Assembly: GCF_023703795.1 (NCBI RefSeq)
Contig: NZ_CP098518.1
Location: 248,001 to 312,000 of the forward strand
Length of the DNA: 64,000 nucleotides
Origin: Haloplanus sp. HW8-1
GTDB lineage: Archaea > Halobacteriota > Halobacteria > Halobacteriales > Haloferacaceae
Direction: 5' to 3'
The position numbers and the translations under genes are program-made. The notes below the pieces were generated by a model that ran no database searches, was not told the DNA's origin, and was given only the letters and a program-made list of their open reading frames with translations. Of the stretch, positions 2,750-44,534 are shown piece after piece (position 1 is the stretch's first letter; every line of letters begins with the position of its first letter).

Positions 2750-3058
2750 CCCCCATCGACGAACGCACCGATAGGATCGTTCCCCGACTCCGTCGTACGG
2801 CCACGTGTTGGACGTCTGATTGATCGGTCCCCGTGACATCACCGACGGGTCGGCGTGACGGGTGCACTCTCCGTCTGGCCGATGGCTGAGTCCGTCGAAT
2901 CCACGGGACCAGCCCGATCACGTCCGCCGTCGTCGTCGGTCCGCTTCGATCGGAATCACCGAGACCATCCCCGGTATGGAGCACGTCGTCTCGGGCCGTG
3001 GCCGACACGATCGACGACGAGTTCGTGGGACTGCGTCCACCGGCGGCGTGACCGTCGC
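2750..3058. other. intergenic region, nothing recognised
   Basis: About 310 bases between the convergent ends of the RraA-family gene and the histidine kinase. No coding frame with family resemblance, RNA or clear repeat was found; it most likely carries the 3' ends and terminators of both transcripts. Confidence 0.5.
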
Positions 3059-5791
3059 TCACTCCCCATCGTCGACGCGGAACTCGAATCGCGCCCCGCC
3101 GTCGTGGCCGTCGGTCACCGAGACCGTCCAGCCGTGGGCGTCGGCGATCTGATCGACGATCGCCAGCCCGAATCCGGTGCCGTCCGTCGCGGTGGTGAAC
3201 CCGCGCTCGAACACGCTGTCCCGTTCCGCCGGGGGAATCCCGGGGCCGTCGTCTTCGACGGCGAAGCCCGCGGAGAAATCGAGAGGTCCGACCCGGACGT
3301 TGACCCCATCCCCACCGTGTTCCACCGCGTTGCGGAACAGGTTCGAGAGCAGTTCGCGCAAGCGATCGGGGTCGGCGTCGATATCCGCGTCGTCGACCGA
3401 GAGGTCGGCCCCGTCGGCGTCGACCTGTTCCCACGCCTCGGTCGCGAGCGCCTCCAAGGAGACGGACTCGGCGTTCAGCACTCGCTGGCCGTGCTCGGCC
3501 ATCGTCAAGAGGTCCTCGATCAGCGTCTCCATCCGGTCGACGGTCGTCTCGATGCTCGTACAGAGGTCCCGAACGGCCGCGGCGTCGACAGTCCCGGATT
3601 CGTCCGTCGTCGCCGATTCGCCGTCGGATTCCGGCGAGACGGTGTTTCCGTCCGCCGATATCGGGGCCGCCTCGGCGTCCATGGCCGCCCGGAACTGTTT
3701 GAGTTCGGCGTCGAGGAGGGCAAGCGGATTCCGGAGGTCGTGCGCGACCGTCTGGCCGTACTGTTTGAGTCGGTCGTTCTGTGCCTTCAGTTCGCGTTCG
3801 TAGGCTTTGAGTTCGGTCACGTCGCGGTTGATCGCGACGAAGCCGGTGATCTCGTCGCCGTCGCCGGTGATCGGGGCGATGGTTTGGTCGACGACGTACT
3901 GTTCCCCGTCCTTGCGTTCGTTGGTCACCTCTCCATGCCAGACCTCACCCTGGAGGATCGTCTCCCAGAGGTCGCGGTAGAACGTCTCGTCGTGTTCGTC
4001 GGAGTTGAGTAGGGCGGGCGTTCGACCGACCGCCTCCGCGGCGGAGTACCCGCTCAGTTCCTCGAACGCGTCGTTGACGTACTCGATGTGGCCGTCGGCG
4101 TCGGTGACGAGGACGCTGTGGCCCGCGTGTTCGACGGCGCTCCGAAACCGTTCGAGATCCCGCTCCTGTCGCTTGCGCTCGGCCGCGTCCCTGACCGTGT
4201 TCACCTGGTAGGGCTCGCCGTCGATGTGTACCCGGGACGTGACGACTTCGACGGGGCACCGTTCGCCGGTGTCGAGACGCTCGATTCGTGTATCGTAGAT
4301 CCGTCGCTCGCCGTCGTCGAACGACTCCCAGTACGCCGGAAACCGATCTCGGTCGAGGGACGGATCGAGCGAACCCATGTGCCGGGATCGGAGGTCCTCC
4401 CGCGTCGTTCCGAACAGTTCGGCGAGCCGTTCGTTGACGTACGTCGCGTATCCGTCGGCGCCGTAGGTCCCGATGCCGATACCGGCCTGATCGATGGCCC
4501 GTTTGAGGAACGCCAGGTTCAGTTCGCGCTCCTTGCGGTCCGTGATGTCGCGGTTGATGGCGACGAAGCCGGTGATCCCGTCGTCGTCGGTGATGGGGGC
4601 GATGGTCTGGTGGATGACGTACCGGGTGCCGTCCTTGCGCTCGTTGACCACCTCGCCCTCCCAGACCTCGCCCGACGAAATCGTCTCCCAGAGATCGGCG
4701 TAGAACGCCTCGTCGTGCTGGCCGGACTGGAGCATCGACGGCCGGCGACCGACGGCCTCCGACGGCGCGTAGCCGGTCGTCGTCTCGAACGCGTCGTTGA
4801 CGTACGTGATCTCCCCGTCCGCATCGGTGAGCAACACCACGTGCCCGGCGTGTTCGACGGCACTCCGGAACTGTCGATTGCGTCGCTCGCGACTGGCGCG
4901 GGTCTCGGCGCGATCGAGGGCGTCGGCGACGTTGCTCCCGACCGTCGTCAGTGTCTCGCGCTCCCTGTCATCGAAGGTCTCCGCGCGATCCGCGTACGCG
5001 TGTAAGACGCCGTGGAGCGTCCCGTCGGCGATCAGTGGGACGGCCACGGCGGCACGACTCCCGGCGATGAGTCCCCCGTCGCCCAGAGGAACGTCGCCGG
5101 CTGTCGCGCGGTCGCTCACCACTGGCTCGCGCGTTCGGACTGCCCGTCCCGTCTCACCGCCACCGGATGCGACCTCGATCTCGACGCCATCGAGACTCCC
5201 CACGTCGTCACCGGCGGCCGCTCGCGGCTCGACGACGCGCCGCTCGGCGTCGTAGGCGCCGATCCAGACGGCGGCGTAGCGGCCGACGTCGTCGAGGATC
5301 TCACAGACGCGCCGTTCGATCTCGGTTCTGGTTTCGGCACCGACGAGTGCCCGGCAGACCGCGCCGACGAGTCGGTCACCGCGTTCGACCGCCGTCGCTC
5401 GACGGATCGCACGATACCGTTCGACCGCGTGTTCGATCCGATTGGCGAGCAACTCGTCTTCCCTCGGTCCCGATCCGTTCGGCACGACGTCGACGCCGTC
5501 GTAGGCGAGCACCTCGCGGACGAGGGACGTCCGGTCGGTGTCGGTGACGAGGAAAAACGGAACTTCGTCGGACATCTCCCGCACCGCCTCCAGGACCGCG
5601 AGGTCGTCCCCCTCGTGGACGACACAGTCGACCGCAGTCGTCGAGAGTCGATCGACCGCCTCATCCACGCCCACGACGGCCTCGATGAGGAGGCCGTCAC
5701 TCAGTGTCTCGAGACGATCCGCTGTCGCCGCCGCGGACTCTCGGTCGTCGCCGACGTAGAGTACGCGGCCCGGCTCGGTCGTCTCGCCCAT
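3059..5791 (-). CDS. multi-sensor histidine kinase (pseudo-receiver, GAF, three PAS, HisKA/HATPase)
   Basis: 910 residues with no membrane segments, so a soluble cytoplasmic sensor. The order is: receiver-like domain (1-125), GAF (about 140-300), PAS1 (306-420), PAS2 (425-540), PAS3 (549-662), then the kinase. The H-box TVAHDLRNPL puts the phospho-acceptor at His684; the N-box is NLFRNAVEHGG, and the G boxes are EDDGPGIP and GTGFGLAI, so the catalytic core is complete. In the receiver-like domain the phospho-acceptor Asp is replaced by Glu60 (VDCVVHE), so it probably cannot be phosphorylated. PAS1 and PAS3 are near-duplicates. A Ser/Thr/Asp-rich insert lies between H-box and ATPase. There is no adjacent response regulator, which is common for haloarchaeal kinases; the signal is unknown. 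Confidence 0.9.
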   Translation of the reverse strand: MGETTEPGRVLYVGDDRESAAATADRLETLSDGLLIEAVVGVDEAVDRLSTTAVDCVVHEGDDLAVLEAVREMSDEVPFFLVTDTDRTSLVREVLAYDGVDVVPNGSGPREDELLANRIEHAVERYRAIRRATAVERGDRLVGAVCRALVGAETRTEIERRVCEILDDVGRYAAVWIGAYDAERRVVEPRAAAGDDVGSLDGVEIEVASGGGETGRAVRTREPVVSDRATAGDVPLGDGGLIAGSRAAVAVPLIADGTLHGVLHAYADRAETFDDRERETLTTVGSNVADALDRAETRASRERRNRQFRSAVEHAGHVVLLTDADGEITYVNDAFETTTGYAPSEAVGRRPSMLQSGQHDEAFYADLWETISSGEVWEGEVVNERKDGTRYVIHQTIAPITDDDGITGFVAINRDITDRKERELNLAFLKRAIDQAGIGIGTYGADGYATYVNERLAELFGTTREDLRSRHMGSLDPSLDRDRFPAYWESFDDGERRIYDTRIERLDTGERCPVEVVTSRVHIDGEPYQVNTVRDAAERKRQERDLERFRSAVEHAGHSVLVTDADGHIEYVNDAFEELSGYSAAEAVGRTPALLNSDEHDETFYRDLWETILQGEVWHGEVTNERKDGEQYVVDQTIAPITGDGDEITGFVAINRDVTELKAYERELKAQNDRLKQYGQTVAHDLRNPLALLDAELKQFRAAMDAEAAPISADGNTVSPESDGESATTDESGTVDAAAVRDLCTSIETTVDRMETLIEDLLTMAEHGQRVLNAESVSLEALATEAWEQVDADGADLSVDDADIDADPDRLRELLSNLFRNAVEHGGDGVNVRVGPLDFSAGFAVEDDGPGIPPAERDSVFERGFTTATDGTGFGLAIVDQIADAHGWTVSVTDGHDGGARFEFRVDDGE

Positions 5792-5812
5792 ACGTTCCGA
5801 TGGGCCGAGCGC

Positions 5813-6153
5813 TCATAAATAATCCTCGCAAGTTCCCGGCACGCAGTACGGACACGAAATCGGACTGAGTTGTGATCGCCCACCGACTCGTCCGTCGACG
5901 GCGTCGCCGAGCGTCCTGCCCGTCACACGCAAGTACTCCTCCAGCAAGGGGGGAAACTGCCCGTCACGGACGTACCGGAGACCGAACTCGTCGGCCTGGG
6001 AGTGATGCCTCGATTTTCGGTTACGACGCCGGCGCCGAGTTCGCGAGCGAGGACGAGCAGATCGAAGGCCTCCTGCGAGTCGAGGACGCCCTGCCGGAGC
6101 GCCCGGCGGTACTTATCGCGCATGTTCGAGAGCACGCGGTCGGCGGTGGTCAT
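5813..6153 (-). pseudogene. remnant of HARP-type protein-only RNase P (RNA ligase partner, PIN-like)
   Basis: The minus strand from 6153 reads [20 protein letters not shown] then [20 protein letters not shown], the C-terminal half of the HARP / 'RNA ligase partner' PIN-like family. Near 6001-6006 the frame breaks: the continuation [22 protein letters not shown], typical of the family end, lies in the next frame (open to a stop at 5813). One missing base explains it. The N-terminal about 100 residues with the first PIN acidic residues are absent upstream, where no similar sequence was seen. HARP is dispensable in archaea having RNA-based RNase P, so loss is tolerable. The family assignment is from memory of its C-terminal signature. 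Confidence 0.7.
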
Positions 6154-6952
6154 GTACTCGTCGGGTCGCCGGCGGTCAGACCCGCCGGCTCGAGCCGGAC
6201 TCTTCCGGCGGGTGGCCCCCGGGACGAATGGCCCGATCCGTGGCTCCGCCCAACGCTACAATATATCAGAAAAAGTACTGTATCGATCAAATTAATTTTT
6301 TTAATCATTCAGTTCGGTCCTCGGAGCTACCGATAGAAACCATGTCGACGACGGTCCGTAACCCTGTCTGCGGTAGCCGGGCCGACTCGGCTGAAACACG
6401 TCGAGATCGGTGGATTCATCCGATCAGTTCCCTACACGTCGGCGACGTCCGTCCCCCCGGTGTTCGTCTCCACCGACCCGTCTCCGGCGAGCGAGACGGT
6501 CGTCGGCCGTCCGTCGAACGACTGCGAGACATACGTCCGAGACCAGTCAGCGGTGGCAAGCCGCCAATATTGCCGTCGTTGGGTCACGGTATCGTGGTGT
6601 GGGACGTGATTCTGGGCCACCCGGACCTCCGACCGCCGATCGATTCCGTTGCATCCGGTCGTGTACCGCCGTTCGGGATCCCCCGACACCATACATTCCG
6701 GATATGAATACTATCTCTAAATATGATGTTTCTGGGCGAGCGTCCGCGTATCGAGCGTTGTCGGCTCGGCGCCCCTCGGTCCGAGACGGCGCACTCGCCA
6801 CGACCACCATCGCCGTGAAGGCGGCCGCGCCGACCACGAATCGCCAGGCTCCCTCGATGGTCGTCCCCTCCTTCCGCCAACCGCCGCGTCCGGACGTCGT
6901 CTCGTTCCCGACACGGCCCCGTGATCGGGCGTGCGATCCGTTCCGGACGCGA
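6154..6952. other. long non-coding stretch between HARP remnant and CoA-transferase
   Basis: About 800 bases with no gene I can name. AT-rich patches at 6255-6310 and 6700-6730 could be promoters or decayed DNA. On the minus strand a frame through 6740-6870 has high third-position GC and encodes a hydrophobic segment (GAWRFVVGAAAFTAMVVV) that could be one membrane helix, but no convincing start is near it. It may be a gene fragment. The lost 5' half of the HARP gene would have been here. Confidence 0.4.
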
Positions 6953-8536
6953 TCACACACGCGACGTCGTCAGTGCATCGAGATCGTACGTCGTTAGTGG
7001 GTCGTCGACGGCGACGTCGAACGCGATGTGCTGGCGGACGTCTCTGTCGACGTCGACGCCCGGTGCGATTTCCGTCAGTACGAGTCCGTCGTCGGTGACG
7101 TCGAAACGGCCCCGTTCCGTGATCACCGTGATCTCCGATCCGGCGCCGAGTGCCGCTTGGCCGTCGAGTGTCACCTCGTCGACCGTCTCGACGAACTTTC
7201 GATTGCGTCCCTCCGACTCGACGGTCAGTTCACCGTCGTCGACGGCCACGTCGAGGCCGCCGGCCGTGAGCGATCCGCAGAATACGAGGCGGTCGGTCCG
7301 GTTGGTGATGTCGATGAAGCCGCCGGGGCCCCGCAACATTCCGGCGAAGTTGCTGTTGTTGACGTTTCCGTCCCCGTCGATCTGTGCCAGACCCAGAAAC
7401 GAGACGTCAAGCCCCCCGCCCTGGTACAGCCGGAAGATGTCCGCCGACTTCAACTGCGACTCGAAGTTGTAATGTGACCCGAACTCCTCCGGGTTCGGCG
7501 TGCCACCGATGTTTCCGTGTTCGGTCGTGAACGTGATCCCGTCGAACCGGTCGCGTTCCTTGGCGACCGCGGGGAGATAGACGGGCATCCCGACGCCGAG
7601 GTTGACCAGATCCCCCGCCTTGGCCTCAGCCAACCCTCGACGGAGGATGATCCGCTTTCTGAGTTCGAGGGCGTCGACGTCCGACCGCTCCTCGGGCTGG
7701 AGCGACCGGTGGATGCGTCCCGTCAGGGCCTCCTCGACGCAGTCGTGGCCGAGAATCTGCCGTTGTGACGGGTCGACGACGACGTGGTCCACGAGAGCGC
7801 CCGGAACCGCGATCGAGCGCCCGTCCCCGTGTGTGGACTCGGCGATCCGTTTCACCTGAGCGATGACCGTCCCGCCGGAGTTGCGGGCGGCCATCGCCAT
7901 GTCCCGTATCCCGAGTTCGTTGGGCTCGTGTTCGATGGAGACGTTTCCGTGGCGGTCGACGGTGGTCCCTTTGAGTATCGCGACGTCGATCGGGACGGTC
8001 CGATAGAAGAGATACTCCTCGCCGTCGACTTCGCGCACCTCCACGAGGTCCTCCGTGGCCCGGTTGTATTTGGCTCCCTTCCGCCGCGGATCGACGTAGG
8101 TTCCGAGCCCGACGTCCGTCAGGAGGCCCGGCGATCCGGCGGCCTGTTGTTCGAGCAACTGAAACGAGATTCCCATCGGGAAGGCGTAGGCCTCGATCGC
8201 ATCCGTAGTGACGAGTTCGCTGATGCCGGGCTGTGTCGCCGTGTTGAAACTCCCGGTGATCAACCGTTCGAGAAGTCCCTCGTGTGCCAAGTGTTCCAGC
8301 CCGGTCCCCTCGTTTCCGGCCCGGATCGGGGTGAACACCGTCAGGTTCTCGGGTGTCCCGTCCGACAGATACGACTCTTCCAGCGCAGCGAGGGTCATCT
8401 CCGGGCACAGCATGTTCCCCAAGCCGGAGATCGTGATCGTGCTGCCCGGGGTGATGCTCGACACAGCCTCCGCGGGGTCCGTGAGTTTTTCGCTGACCGT
8501 GTGAACCATCGACAGCCGTATTTCTGGGGTCGTCAC
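6953..8536 (-). CDS. family I acyl-CoA:carboxylate CoA-transferase (propionate/acetate type)
   Basis: 527 residues, the length of fused alpha+beta family I CoA-transferases (Pct/YdiF). The N-terminal glycine-rich SGLGNMLCPEM and the second-half GDLVNLGVGMPVYLP are the CoA-binding loops; the catalytic glutamate that forms the glutamyl-CoA thioester is Glu339 in FTTEHGNIGG. Such enzymes move CoA between acetyl- or propionyl-CoA and short carboxylates or 3-oxoacids. A second Met at residue 10 is an alternative start. It begins 33 nt after the CaiB/BaiF gene on the same strand, forming an operon of two mechanistically unrelated CoA-transferases. Substrate unknown. Confidence 0.87.
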   Translation of the reverse strand: MTTPEIRLSMVHTVSEKLTDPAEAVSSITPGSTITISGLGNMLCPEMTLAALEESYLSDGTPENLTVFTPIRAGNEGTGLEHLAHEGLLERLITGSFNTATQPGISELVTTDAIEAYAFPMGISFQLLEQQAAGSPGLLTDVGLGTYVDPRRKGAKYNRATEDLVEVREVDGEEYLFYRTVPIDVAILKGTTVDRHGNVSIEHEPNELGIRDMAMAARNSGGTVIAQVKRIAESTHGDGRSIAVPGALVDHVVVDPSQRQILGHDCVEEALTGRIHRSLQPEERSDVDALELRKRIILRRGLAEAKAGDLVNLGVGMPVYLPAVAKERDRFDGITFTTEHGNIGGTPNPEEFGSHYNFESQLKSADIFRLYQGGGLDVSFLGLAQIDGDGNVNNSNFAGMLRGPGGFIDITNRTDRLVFCGSLTAGGLDVAVDDGELTVESEGRNRKFVETVDEVTLDGQAALGAGSEITVITERGRFDVTDDGLVLTEIAPGVDVDRDVRQHIAFDVAVDDPLTTYDLDALTTSRV

Positions 8537-8569
8537 ATAATCCTGGCGGGTGGGTGACTCGTCGAGACG

Positions 8570-9757
8570 CTACTCGATGACGTCGCTCTCGCGGAACGCC
8601 TCGAGGGTGGTCTGTGAGTATCCGAGTTCCCGGAACACCTCGTCGGTGTGTTCCCCGAGTCGGGGCGCCTTCGAGACCGTGGGTGCATCGCCGTCGAAAC
8701 GAATCGGGACGCCCGGAGTGGGAATCTCCTCGTCGTGGCTCCCGTCGCTCTCGACGTGGTTGATCATGCCCCGGGCGTGTAACTGTGGGTCCGACGTGAC
8801 CTCGGCGAGCGTCTGGACGGGGGCACAGGGGATGCCGCGTTCGTTCAGTCGGGTCGCGACGGCGTCTTTCTCCTGGGTCTCGACCCACGCCTGGACGAGT
8901 TCGTCGACCTCGTCGACGTGGTTCGCTCTGTCGACTTTCGTCGCGAACCGGTCGTCCTCGGCCAGCCAAGGTTCGCCCATCTCGTCGGCCAGGCGAGCCC
9001 ACTGCTCGTCCGTGACGCAGATGACGACCACGTATCCGTCCGTGGTCTCGTAGGCGTTGTACGGCGCGAGGGACCCGCCGGCGTGTCGGTTACCGAACCG
9101 TAACGGCTCCTCGGCGCCTTCGAGATGTGCCGTGACCGGGGAGGCCAGCGTCGGGTAGACGCAGTCGAACATCCCCACGTCCACGTACGTTCCTTCACCC
9201 GTCCGGTCGCGCTCGTACAACGCGCCGACCACGCCGGTCGCGAGGTGGATCCCGCCGAGGATATCGGCGATGCCCGGCCCGGCTCTGATCGGCGGCCCGT
9301 CTGGGAACCCGGTCGTCGTCATCACGCCCCCTCTCGCCTGTATCGCCAGGTCCATCGCGGGGTCGTCCCTGTACGGTCCGTACTCGCCGTATCCGGAGCC
9401 GTGCGCGTAGACGAGTTCCGGGTTCACCTCGCTGAGCGCCTCATATCCGAGTCCGAGGCGGTCCATCGTCCCCGGCCCGAAGTTCTCGACGAGGACGTCG
9501 GCTTCGGCGACCAGTTCGCGGAACAGCTCCTTTCCCTCCGCCGATTTCAGGTCTATGACGACGTCCCGCTTGTTCGAATTGTAAAAGTAATACGCCGGCG
9601 GATAGCCGTCGTCGTCCCGACTGCGGATCGTCTCACCCCCCGGGGGTTCGATCTTGACGACGTCGGCGCCGAGCCCGGATAGCACGAATCCGCAGTACGG
9701 GCCCATGAAGATCTGTCCCAGGTCGAGTACTCGAACCCCGTCCAACGGACCGTTCAT
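8570..9757 (-). CDS. CaiB/BaiF family III CoA-transferase
   Basis: 395 residues, typical length. The N-terminus GVRVLDLGQIFMGPYCGFVL, then LGADVVKIEPPGGE and NKRDVVIDLK are family III hallmarks; the nucleophilic aspartate is probably Asp136 in DDPAMDLAIQARGG. Homologues transfer CoA between formate, oxalate, carnitine, succinate, mesaconate or benzylsuccinate and their thioesters; the sequence alone does not fix the acid. First gene of the operon with the family I transferase, so both probably activate or recycle CoA for one pathway. Confidence 0.9.
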   Translation of the reverse strand: MNGPLDGVRVLDLGQIFMGPYCGFVLSGLGADVVKIEPPGGETIRSRDDDGYPPAYYFYNSNKRDVVIDLKSAEGKELFRELVAEADVLVENFGPGTMDRLGLGYEALSEVNPELVYAHGSGYGEYGPYRDDPAMDLAIQARGGVMTTTGFPDGPPIRAGPGIADILGGIHLATGVVGALYERDRTGEGTYVDVGMFDCVYPTLASPVTAHLEGAEEPLRFGNRHAGGSLAPYNAYETTDGYVVVICVTDEQWARLADEMGEPWLAEDDRFATKVDRANHVDEVDELVQAWVETQEKDAVATRLNERGIPCAPVQTLAEVTSDPQLHARGMINHVESDGSHDEEIPTPGVPIRFDGDAPTVSKAPRLGEHTDEVFRELGYSQTTLEAFRESDVIE

Positions 9758-39329: not shown

Positions 39330-39576
39330 TCCCGCTCCCCTCGTTCCGTTCGTCTTCACGGTATCCACGGGACTCGGTTCGAACGACCGACTGCAGACTG
39401 GCGTCTTCTCCGGAACCGGGTGCTTCGTCCCCGAGTACGTGCGCCGCTCGTTGAGTCCGCACCGCATGGCGTCGATCCGTCGGCTCGCGAGAACTTGGAC
39501 CGGGGAAGTGGTGTCATCGGATCCGTCGACGGGGTATGCAACAGGTATAGTTGAATATGATCTGTTTCGCCACCGT

Positions 39577-39925
39577 ATGTCGGACCAGACCATTGTCTAC
39601 GTAACTCGGAGTATTCCGAACGTCGAAACCGAGGCGCTGGCTGAGGGATGTGACATCGAGGTGTGGGACGGAAAACTCCCACCGGAGAAAGATCACATCG
39701 TCGAGAAATTGTCCGAACTCGAGGCGGACGGGTTCCTGTGTCTCCCGACGACATCGACGCCGAGGTGATGGACGCATCACCGAACCTCGAGGTCGTCAGT
39801 ACGTACTCGGTCGGATTCGATCACATCGACCTCGGCGCCGCTGAGGAGCGGCACATCGCTGTCGATCACCCCCCGGTGTCCTCACCGAGACGACCTTTCA
39901 GATCCGTCTCCGCGCACCTCGTCGG
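39577..39925 (+). pseudogene. remnant of a D-2-hydroxyacid dehydrogenase (glyoxylate reductase-like)
   Basis: Translation from the ATG at 39577 gives TIVYVTRSIPNVETEALAEG and on to ELEADGFLCLPT, the N-terminal part of a glyoxylate/hydroxypyruvate reductase. Near 39742-39750 the frame shifts by one base: DDIDAEVMDASPNLEVVSTY then SVGFDHIDLGAAEE continue in another frame, and around 39872-39878 (a run of six C) a second shift leads to PGVLTETT. After that the NAD-binding domain is missing altogether. So the gene has two frameshifts and has lost more than half its length. An intact relative is at 14004. Confidence 0.75.
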
Positions 39926-39962
39926 TGACTGTGACGGCGGGACGAAGCCACGACGCAAATAC
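39905..39962 (+). repeat. imperfect direct repeat, copy A
   Basis: About 56 bases (starting GATCCGTCTCCG and ending GACGAAGCCACGACGCAA) align without gaps to 44584-44639, with about nine differences by eye. The differences show no three-base periodicity, so the similarity is not that of a shared protein. The two copies bracket about 4.6 kb containing an SDR, RidA, Gfo/Idh oxidoreductase and interrupted aminotransferase. Confidence 0.6.
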
Positions 39963-40028: not shown

Positions 40029-40844
40029 CTACCGGCCCTTGCTGCCCCATCCGAAGGCGAGCCACCCACCGTCGGCCGTGATGACCTGCCCACTGATGTA
40101 ATGACCGCCTGCCGCCAGGAACGTCGTACAGTTTGCCATCTCCTCGATCGTTCCAAACCGGCCCAGTGGAACCCTGTTGTGGATGTGGTCGTCGGTGTAC
40201 CCGTAGTACGGCCAGGTCGTTTCGTCGTATACCGAGTCGTCGTCGCCCCGTGTCTGCTCGTCGAGAGGTGTCTTGATGAATCCGGGAGCCAACGCATTGA
40301 CCCCGATTTCGTGTTCGCCCAACTCGACGGCGAAGCTTCGGGTGAGGTTGTTTACACCGGCTTTCGCCGCATTGTAGTTTCCTCGCCCCTGCACGCCGAA
40401 GTGGCCAAACAAACTCGAGATGTTGATGATCTGTCCCCCGTCGTCTCTGTCGACCATTCGCTGACCGGCCGCCTTACAGCCGAAGAACACGCCCGTAAGA
40501 TCCACTTCGATAACCGTTCGCCATTCGTCCTCGCCCAATTCGAGTAACGGATGATTAGCTTGCACTCCAGCGTTGTTGACCATGATGTCGAGAGAACCGA
40601 ACTTCCGAACCGCTGTATCCACGAGTTCTTCAACGTCCGCGTAGGTCGTCATGTCCGCTTCCACGCCGATGGCCTCACCACCGGCCTCGCGGATATCCCC
40701 CGCGACTCGGTCCGCGCGTTCTTGCTTTCGTGAATTCGTCACCACGTTCGCACCCTCTTCGGCGAATCGGACCGCGATGCCTTCCCCGATGCCACTACTG
40801 GATCCAGTTACGATTGCCGTCTTCCCCTCTAATCGCCCGGACAT
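40029..40844 (-). CDS. short-chain dehydrogenase/reductase (SDR)
   Basis: 271 residues. TGSSSGIGEGIAVRFAEEG (cofactor loop), NNAG in DIMVNNAGVQ, Ser in NISSLFGHFG, catalytic Tyr/Lys in GNYNAAKAGVNN and C-terminal ISGQVITADGGWLAFGW. An insert of about 20 residues (TRGDDDSVYDETTWPYYGYT) before RVPLGRFGTIEEM is longer than in typical SDRs and probably lies over the substrate pocket. This resembles glucose 1-dehydrogenase or gluconate 5-dehydrogenase-type enzymes. ACAATATAATCT centred near 40872 is a good TATA box 28 nt upstream. Its codons look less GC-biased than those of the flanking kilobases. Confidence 0.9.
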   Translation of the reverse strand: MSGRLEGKTAIVTGSSSGIGEGIAVRFAEEGANVVTNSRKQERADRVAGDIREAGGEAIGVEADMTTYADVEELVDTAVRKFGSLDIMVNNAGVQANHPLLELGEDEWRTVIEVDLTGVFFGCKAAGQRMVDRDDGGQIINISSLFGHFGVQGRGNYNAAKAGVNNLTRSFAVELGEHEIGVNALAPGFIKTPLDEQTRGDDDSVYDETTWPYYGYTDDHIHNRVPLGRFGTIEEMANCTTFLAAGGHYISGQVITADGGWLAFGWGSKGR

Positions 40845-41378: not shown

Positions 41379-41768
41379 ATGGCGCACATGAAGAACGTGA
41401 TATTCACCCCGGACGCACCGAGTCCCGAGAACGTCCCGTACTCCCAGGGCGTCGAGGCCAACGGCTTCATCTTCTCGGGACAGGGCCCACACGTTCCCGG
41501 GAAGGGGCGTGAGACCGTCGACGGTGGTATCGAAGCACAAACAAGAAGATGTATCGACAACCTTCAGGCCGTACTCGAGGAGAGGGATGCGACACTGGAG
41601 GATGTGGTCAAAGTGACGGTGTACCTCACTGACATCGACAACTACGAAGCGATGAACGAGGTGTACTCCGAGTACTTCCCCGAGGACTTCCCGGCCCGAG
41701 CAACGCTGGAAGTGAGCGACATTCCGTTCGGCGGAATCGCAGTCGACACGATCGCAGTCACCGAGTGA
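41379..41768 (+). CDS. RidA/YjgF-family enamine/imine deaminase
   Basis: 129 residues. The family pattern is PYSQGVEANGFIFSGQGPH, QTRRCIDNLQAVLEERDATLEDVVKVTVYLTD and FPARATLEVSDIPFGGIAVD, with the active-site Arg107 of RidA retained (PARATLEV). RidA hydrolyses reactive 2-aminoacrylate and other enamines released by PLP enzymes; relatives act in ring or amino-acid catabolism. The neighbouring aminotransferase and the amino-acid oxidase at 25347 could generate such imines. An ATG at 41388 is an alternative start, but the TATA-like element near 41355 fits 41379 better. Confidence 0.9.
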   Translation: MAHMKNVIFTPDAPSPENVPYSQGVEANGFIFSGQGPHVPGKGRETVDGGIEAQTRRCIDNLQAVLEERDATLEDVVKVTVYLTDIDNYEAMNEVYSEYFPEDFPARATLEVSDIPFGGIAVDTIAVTE

Positions 41769-41989: not shown

Positions 41990-43210
41990 TTACGGAGTCG
42001 CGTTTGTAACTGTACACTCACCTGATCGAATGCAGTCCGGCGATCCGGTGTGCAACGACCGACACAGGCTACGATGAGACGAAACGACGAGAGGGTGTTC
42101 TACCAGGACTTGATTCGAATGTCCTGAAGCGGGCGAGAGAGGGAAATCGAGGCGGCCGCCCGAGTGGTGGGTGACGTACAAGGCGATGATAATTTCGAGT
42201 GACTTGAGCGCTTCCCGACCGGACGATAGGTTCTCGGCGCTTCCCTCGACCAGTTCGACGACGTGTTCTGCGGCGTTCCCGAAGGCGTTGCGGTAGTCCT
42301 CGTCCCAGGTCCATGCGCCGTCGATTCCAGGGAGTGACTCTTCGATGTGCTCACCGTCTTCGAGTCGCCAGTACCGCCACTCCCCGTCGTCGTTGTTGAG
42401 GTAGAGCTTCCCCTTGGATCCCATGAATATGTAACACATCGACGACGACTCCCTCGGGACGGTACAATCGAGCGTCGCGAACGTATTCTCTTTCGTAACG
42501 AGGAACCCACCACCACCGGCGTCGTCGACCGGATCGTCGACGTCTAGAGTATCGACGGCCTCGTTTTCACCATTGACGTATCCCGTGATCATGTCCGCTC
42601 GCGAATTCAGGAGATATACGAGTGTGTCGAGCAGATGGGTCGAGTTCCGCATCAACTCCATCCGAAACTGTGCGTGGACGGAGTGGACGTCCCCCAGTAG
42701 ATCCCGTTCGTTCATGAGGTCGTGAAGTGTCTGAAGCTTCTCTGTGAAACGATGAGAGTGATTGATCACCAGTTCCGTGTCCGTTTCATCACAGGTATCG
42801 ATCATCTGCTTGGCTTCAGTGACGCTCGACGCGATCGGCTTTTCGCACCAGATCACGTCTGGATCCCCCTTGGTCGCGGCATCCACCACGTGTTCATGGT
42901 GGAGTATGGTCGGCGTACAGACGGACACGATATCGAACTCGTTGGTCTCCAGCATCTCGCAGTGGTCTCGATACCGGCTTGACGGCGGAACGTTCCACGC
43001 GTTCCCGAACCGTTCGAGTTTCTCCTCGTCGATGTCCGCGATAGCCGTGATTTCCACGTCGTCGACGGTTGCGTACCCGCCGGCATGACTCGCCGGGACC
43101 GATTTCTCGCCCAATTCGTCGTCATCGTGGACTCCGAAGAGACCCATACCCGCAACGCCACCAGTGCCAATGATGGCTGCTTGATAGACCAGTCGTACCG
43201 CGATTTCCAT
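41990..43210 (-). CDS. Gfo/Idh/MocA-family oxidoreductase with a frameshifted C-terminus
   Basis: 406 residues. A Rossmann domain (YQAAIIGTGGVAGMGL, DVEITAIADIDEEKLERFG, VSVCTPTILHHEHV) carries the signature Glu-Lys-Pro in WCEKPIASSV, followed by the C-terminal sheet with HSHRFTEKL and VHSVHAQFRMELM. Members oxidise or reduce sugars, inositols and sugar acids with NAD(P). After GGRLDFPLS (near 42135) the neighbouring frame would end RPLQDIRIKSW with a stop at 42100-42102, a natural family-like end; the present frame runs about 37 residues further with an unrelated tail. A one-base change is likely. The core is complete, so activity may survive. Confidence 0.82.
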   Translation of the reverse strand: MEIAVRLVYQAAIIGTGGVAGMGLFGVHDDDELGEKSVPASHAGGYATVDDVEITAIADIDEEKLERFGNAWNVPPSSRYRDHCEMLETNEFDIVSVCTPTILHHEHVVDAATKGDPDVIWCEKPIASSVTEAKQMIDTCDETDTELVINHSHRFTEKLQTLHDLMNERDLLGDVHSVHAQFRMELMRNSTHLLDTLVYLLNSRADMITGYVNGENEAVDTLDVDDPVDDAGGGGFLVTKENTFATLDCTVPRESSSMCYIFMGSKGKLYLNNDDGEWRYWRLEDGEHIEESLPGIDGAWTWDEDYRNAFGNAAEHVVELVEGSAENLSSGREALKSLEIIIALYVTHHSGGRLDFPLSPASGHSNQVLVEHPLVVSSHRSLCRSLHTGSPDCIRSGECTVTNATP

Positions 43211-43337
43211 GTCGACGCATTACTCCTTCGATTCATGCGTTATACTGCCCTTCGTACAAGTTCGAGAGTTTCAGTAGGAATCTCCAGAACCGAGGGAGGG
43301 GAAACCATTTTTAAGTATCTCAGTCAAGAATTCGGGC

Positions 43338-44534
43338 ATGTGTGAGGAGGTAACACATCACCCGCCGGCTGAACTTTCCACCCGAGCCACGAACGCGCAG
43401 CCGTCACAGATCAGAGCCATGTTCAACCGAGCCGAACGGCATGGGGGAGACCTCGTCCGCTTGGAAATCGGTGACCCCGACTTTTCGACACCGAAGCACA
43501 TCATCGAGTCTGCCTTCGATGCGACGCTCGAGGGGGAGACCCACTACACGCCGAACGCCGGAACGCTGGAACTTCGGCGGGCAATTGCCGAGAAAATGGA
43601 CGCGGAGAACAACGTCTCGTACGATCCGGAGAGCGAGATACTCGTCGGGAACGGCGCTATGGAAGCGCTGTATCTCGCGCTACTAACGGTCATCGATCCG
43701 GGCGACGAAGTCGTCGTTCCGATACCCGGATGGCCCAACTACCTATCGTAGATTTCCTTGGTCGGTGGTGAGTGCGTACCCGTTACACTCCCGAAGGAAC
43801 AGGGATTTTCTTTCGACGCAACTCGCGTGATGGAGGCGATCTCGGAAGATACCGCCGCAGTAATCATCAACTCGCCCTGTAATCCGACCGGGGGGGTGTA
43901 CGATTCGAGTGAGGTGTGCGCCATGATCGAGGAGGCCGCCGCACACGACGCGTACGTAATCGTCGACGAAATTTACGAGGGATTACTCTACGAGGGCGAT
44001 CCGACATCTGTCGCGGCCCAGACGGAGTATTCTGACCACGTCCTCACGGTCAACGGGTGTTCCAAAAAGTACGCCATGACCGGCTGGCGTGTCGGGTGGT
44101 TGGCTGGCTCGGAAGGAGTCATCGGTCCGGCAACCAAACTCCACGAGAGTACGACGTCCTGTGCGTCAACGATGTCCCAAAACGCGGCGGTCGCCGCCCT
44201 AACCGGGGATCAATCGCCAATCCGGACGATAAAATCCGCCTTCAGGGAGCGGCGGGACTACGTCGTTGAGCGGATTGAGGACCTCCCTGTAGTCACGAGT
44301 CCGACGCCCGAGGGTGCGTTCTACGCGTTCCTCGACGTCAGCGGACTCGATGGATCGAGCATGGAGATTGTGAAGCGTCTCCTGTACGATTACGGCGTCG
44401 TGACAGCACTGGGGATCGGCTTTTCGGAGTACACTGACGACTTCGTCCGGATTTCGTTTGCCAACAACGTCGACCGACTGGAAGTAGGGTTCGACCGTAT
44501 CGACGAGATGGTGCGTGATTCGGGAGGACACTGA
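43338..44534 (+). pseudogene. class I/II aminotransferase interrupted by one in-frame TAG
   Basis: A 398-codon frame of a PLP aminotransferase (aspartate aminotransferase fold). It reads LVRLEIGDPDFSTPKHIIES, YTPNAGTLELRRAIAEKM, GNGAMEALYLALL and PIPGWPNYLS, then TAG at 43749-43751 (codon 138), then ISLVGGECVPVTLPKEQGF in the same frame. Downstream everything is intact: NSPCNPTGGVYD, VIVDEIYEGLLYEG, the PLP lysine (about Lys243) in NGCSKKYAMTGWRVGW, and FVRISFANN. A Gln codon CAG to TAG change at the usual NYxxQ position explains it. The promoter ATTTTTAAGTAT near 43311 is intact. Either a very recent pseudogene, a sequence error or a readthrough case. Confidence 0.85.

Follow-up and report, generated by a model that had tools for sequence, protein, structure and literature searches.

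The described systems closest to the locus considered here are the archaeal aspartate aminotransferases (PF00155, NF041091), the nonsense-type pseudogenes of prokaryotes and the pyrrolysine recoding of Methanosarcina methyltransferases. The locus lies in the window, a stretch of 64,000 nucleotides from Haloplanus sp. HW8-1, and it resembles the aspartate aminotransferases in that both profiles match the protein obtained when its internal stop is read through, but differs from them in scoring below the NF041091 cut-off and in having an interrupted reading frame. With the Methanosarcina genes it shares a TAG in frame inside a conserved enzyme frame; unlike those cases, no methylamine methyltransferase is involved, PylS_Nterm and PylB were not found in the genome and TAG is a normal terminator. 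With the nonsense-type pseudogenes it shares a single premature stop, a redundant accessory gene and decayed neighbours, and here we found no difference. What we describe is most likely of a kind already well known, an ordinary pseudogene reflecting ordinary gene decay, and not a new reading of the genetic code.

The interrupted gene, an accessory class I/II aminotransferase recognised by frame inspection, Pfam match and alignment, occupies 43338-44534 on the forward strand. Codon 138, a TAG at 43749-43751 on that strand, shares its frame with the ATG at 43338 and with the TGA ending at 44534; when it is counted as a residue, the frame comprises 398 amino acids, and residues 38-376 match Aminotran_1_2 (PF00155; profile positions 2-348 of 361, E 1.2e-66), so that the continuation past the stop reflects homology and is not a chance open frame. 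The first-pass annotation had described a lone in-frame amber codon in an otherwise open aminotransferase frame, which the frame and the profile match bear out, and its expectation of glutamine at this codon proved correct: at alignment position 138, 42 of 43 relatives carry Gln and the remaining one His (a set that includes the near-duplicate rows L003/L089 and L006/L007). It had also stated that the PLP-binding and catalytic residues are kept, and when the protein is aligned with aspartate aminotransferases of solved structure the NPTG, DEIY, SKKYAMTGWR and VRISFA blocks are indeed all present. Its further claim of no other lesion stands as far as a second stop or a frameshift is concerned. 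Of 80 alignment columns with an invariance of at least 97% among the other rows, however, 8 are altered here, including Pro-to-Leu and Gly-to-Ser changes in the conserved C-terminal PG..FG motif. Since the same count in other divergent rows is 5-9, these altered columns alone are no clear evidence of decay.

The nearest solved chains to the read-through protein are aspartate aminotransferases, for example 1j32. Its residues 24-392 match NF041091 with 319.5 bits and, because this is under the cut-off of 550, we do not assign it to that equivalog. Leaderless haloarchaeal promoters carry a TATA-like element at about the spacing seen here, where TTTTTAAG (43308-43315, forward strand) stands approximately 25 nt upstream of the ATG and is, judged by its sequence, a putative promoter.

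In our view the probability is roughly 85% that the aminotransferase gene, a redundant copy acquired horizontally, was put out of action by a recent nonsense mutation within a decaying block. A premature stop within a homologous coding frame, the mark of a recent nonsense pseudogene, is directly observed. The gene would have been gained horizontally as a redundant copy, the small catabolic block around it would be decaying as a whole (we infer the order and recency of these events), and the mutation at codon 138 would recently have inactivated the aminotransferase. Only the first 137 residues would be translated, a stretch that reaches neither the NPTG motif nor the PLP-binding lysine; no working enzyme is therefore predicted, and aminotransferase function has probably been lost. 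GC3 is equal on the two sides of the stop (0.72 before and 0.71 after), which is consistent with recent inactivation. Very recent decay, a sequencing error and a stop that is read through had all been offered as explanations by the first-pass annotation; the first is supported, the second is less likely and the third is unsupported. For annotation, the appropriate label is pseudogene, and the gene is not to be taken as evidence of recoding; beyond this the finding matters little.

The broken genes nearby are context that was absent from the earlier description. The block, at approximately 39.5-44.5 kb, has a lower GC content, and three of its five recognisable genes are broken. The short-chain dehydrogenase (SDR), RidA and Gfo/Idh genes and both parts of the aminotransferase have a GC3 of 0.69-0.76, compared with 0.82-0.90 in ten flanking genes. 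Decay is supported by the broken Gfo/Idh and 2-hydroxyacid dehydrogenase genes of the same block, each of which was broken independently. The Gfo/Idh/MocA oxidoreductase gene (41990-43210, reverse strand), identified by profile match and alignment to relatives, matches those relatives through residue 358, beyond which the conserved end shifts frame after a short CT-rich run, the frameshift lying at about 42136-42142; this C-terminal end, SRPLQDIRIKSW, is found in another frame with a stop at 42100-42102, where a relative has ERPLRDVTITSW. There were no DNA matches of more than 44 bases to the Gfo coding region in 11 genomes of the same genus. At 39520-39960 on the forward strand lies a frameshifted and truncated remnant of a D-2-hydroxyacid dehydrogenase gene, which covers only positions 47-96 of the 134 in PF00389, has its start in another frame and carries several lesions; none of its NAD-binding part was recognised. 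By their profile matches, the genes for a RidA-family protein (41379-41768, forward strand) and an SDR (40029-40844, reverse strand) appear intact. We regard the block as a small example of acquired catabolic genes decaying singly in a haloarchaeon.

Just past the end of the Gfo gene, at 41996-42075, is a degenerate palindromic MITE-like repeat of about 80 bp, recognised from copies elsewhere in the genome and the genus. Further copies occur in its own genome and seven matches in genome G074; one of these seven stands a short way ahead of a frame that we take to resemble a transposase. When plasmid DNA was searched with the block, 65 records matched, all at 60-80% identity and none spanning most of the block, and among the plasmid matches listed 9 of 10 hit the Gfo gene alone.

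Counting against decay, the aminotransferase has no other stop or frameshift, and the SDR and RidA genes of the block appear intact. Because no further stop or frameshift is present, an error of base-calling or assembly, with the gene intact in the organism, would look alike: it would need one substitution within an otherwise open frame, and an isolated frameshift that breaks a homologue in another genome (G052), where no TAG is responsible, could itself be an assembly error. We nevertheless consider an error unlikely, since internal stops are few in other families of this assembly and the neighbouring genes carry lesions of their own. Internal stops were found in 1 of 8 aminotransferase matches (this gene), 1 of 49 ABC_tran matches and 0 of 18 adh_short matches, the assembly consists of 3 contigs totalling 3,839,886 bases and is 99.89% complete, and the several lesions of the nearby 2-hydroxyacid dehydrogenase are not explained by base-call error.

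That the aminotransferase gene was acquired horizontally and is redundant is suggested by its relatives. Even the closest, from Haladaptatus, share no more than about 57-60% identity; in other genera, the two best relatives match with E-values of 6e-141 and 6e-145, whereas the best matches in 11 other genomes of the same genus range from 1e-69 to 1e-130. There are seven other matches to the protein in its own genome, none of them with an internal stop, and the nearest of these paralogues (contig C1, 210346-211482) is intact and 53% identical. An acquired, redundant gene fits both the congeners matching more weakly than other genera and the presence of this paralogue. In the tree, the paralogue groups with the three included congeners (G068, G070 and G072). 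The window gene lies among accessory copies at a position that lacks support, on a long end branch (0.55) and with no close relative. The tree leaves out L129, because of its extension beyond the stop, the near-duplicates L003 and L007, and L084, which the program dropped; its own-genome outgroup rows, L085 and L086, are badly cut and have very long branches. We also considered accelerated evolution of the window gene and saw no clear sign of it: compared with the main clade it has a mean identity of 0.523, which falls inside the range of other divergent rows (0.497-0.615).

A relative on a plasmid of Haloprofundus halobius (NZ_CP083667.1; 6001-7121 of the stretch L210) is likewise split, in this case by a frameshift into two overlapping frames, and the gene therefore looks dispensable elsewhere. 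In Haladaptatus halobius the gene immediately after a similar aminotransferase (55% identical) is a Gfo/Idh gene, which gave no match when compared with the Gfo gene of the window. A TAG shared with the relatives G014 and G016 was considered and rejected, as both are ordinary terminal stops and not internal ones: that of G016 sits at the end of the alignment and the G014 frame closes in TAG after 383 amino acids.

A split of the frame need not by itself abolish the protein, if the two parts, of 137 amino acids and of 258 amino acids from reinitiation at a TTG at 43758, assembled into an enzyme. That TTG, a possible start, lies 6 nt past the TAG, and passages of a study of Haloferax volcanii report a demonstration of termination-reinitiation (PMC6728339). 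The constructs described in those passages contain an intragenic SD motif (PMC6728339), but no SD-like GGAG occurs just upstream of the TTG at 43758, and none of the 43 aligned relatives is split at the same place. We think a two-part enzyme highly improbable; neither a functional split protein nor read-through has positive support.

Read-through of the TAG by a suppressor tRNA, a near-cognate Gln-tRNA or pyrrolysine, yielding the full-length enzyme, would account for a frame that is open on both sides of the stop with conserved residues, but it too is very unlikely, and we would put as little trust in partial read-through, by a near-cognate Gln-tRNA or an unseen suppressor, that still made the aminotransferase at a low level. 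TAG is a normal stop in this organism: of 431 coding-like frames sampled over 464 kb, 124 close with it, 248 with TGA and 59 with TAA. Profile searches of the genome gave no match to PylS_Nterm or PylB, PylS being tested by its N-domain, and two weak matches to PylD of 23.5 and 21.6 bits, under the cut-off of 150.05. Relevant passages of a review of archaeal recoding name no demonstrated cases of read-through other than Sec and Pyl (PMC8211752), and among the papers listed by searches of one open-access library no title dealt with read-through of amber codons in metabolic genes of haloarchaea. Elsewhere in the genome, a two-domain ABC ATPase gene (contig C1, 1362400-1364200) has a lone in-frame TAA in a frame that is otherwise open; because this stop is TAA, lone stops are not specific to amber, which favours mutation over suppression.

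A genome-wide search for TAG between two coding-like frames returned 61 pairs in 21 stretches, the separating stop being TAG in 23, TGA in 30 and TAA in 8. The excess of TAG over its terminal share (124/431) is slight and unconvincing, many pairs looking like adjacent genes or spurious frames, and because the aminotransferase itself is missing from the 61 pairs we regard the test as insensitive and give it no weight beyond stop usage.

Among the tRNAs examined with ARAGORN and in an Rfam alignment, a scan that was not exhaustive, none had a CUA anticodon. With a threshold of E<=0.001 the survey comprised 55 matches, and with E<=10 it comprised 58; ARAGORN was run on 47 stretches and, in a long-intron run, on 85 stretches of the same genome (643,326 bases including overlaps). 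In favour of read-through, a scan of this kind can overlook tRNAs that have long introns, and one tRNA-like match (contig C1, 2581657-2581775, reverse strand; 38.6 bits), which contains a long insertion and whose anticodon stem is mismatched, has no assignable anticodon. Two of the three sub-threshold matches were, according to ARAGORN, a dubious Gly tRNA (L212) and nothing (L213), and the third (contig C3, 4759-4776) lies inside a stretch (C3, 1-20000) that yielded no CUA call. The match at C3, 5973-6039 was uncalled by ARAGORN; the Rfam alignment gives its anticodon as UGU. At 2853-8631 of this 200-kb contig about a dozen tRNA genes are predicted, all on the same strand; Gln(TTG), Trp, Tyr, three Ser and Met are among them, none has a CUA anticodon, and we take the array to resemble those of some large viruses or megaplasmids.
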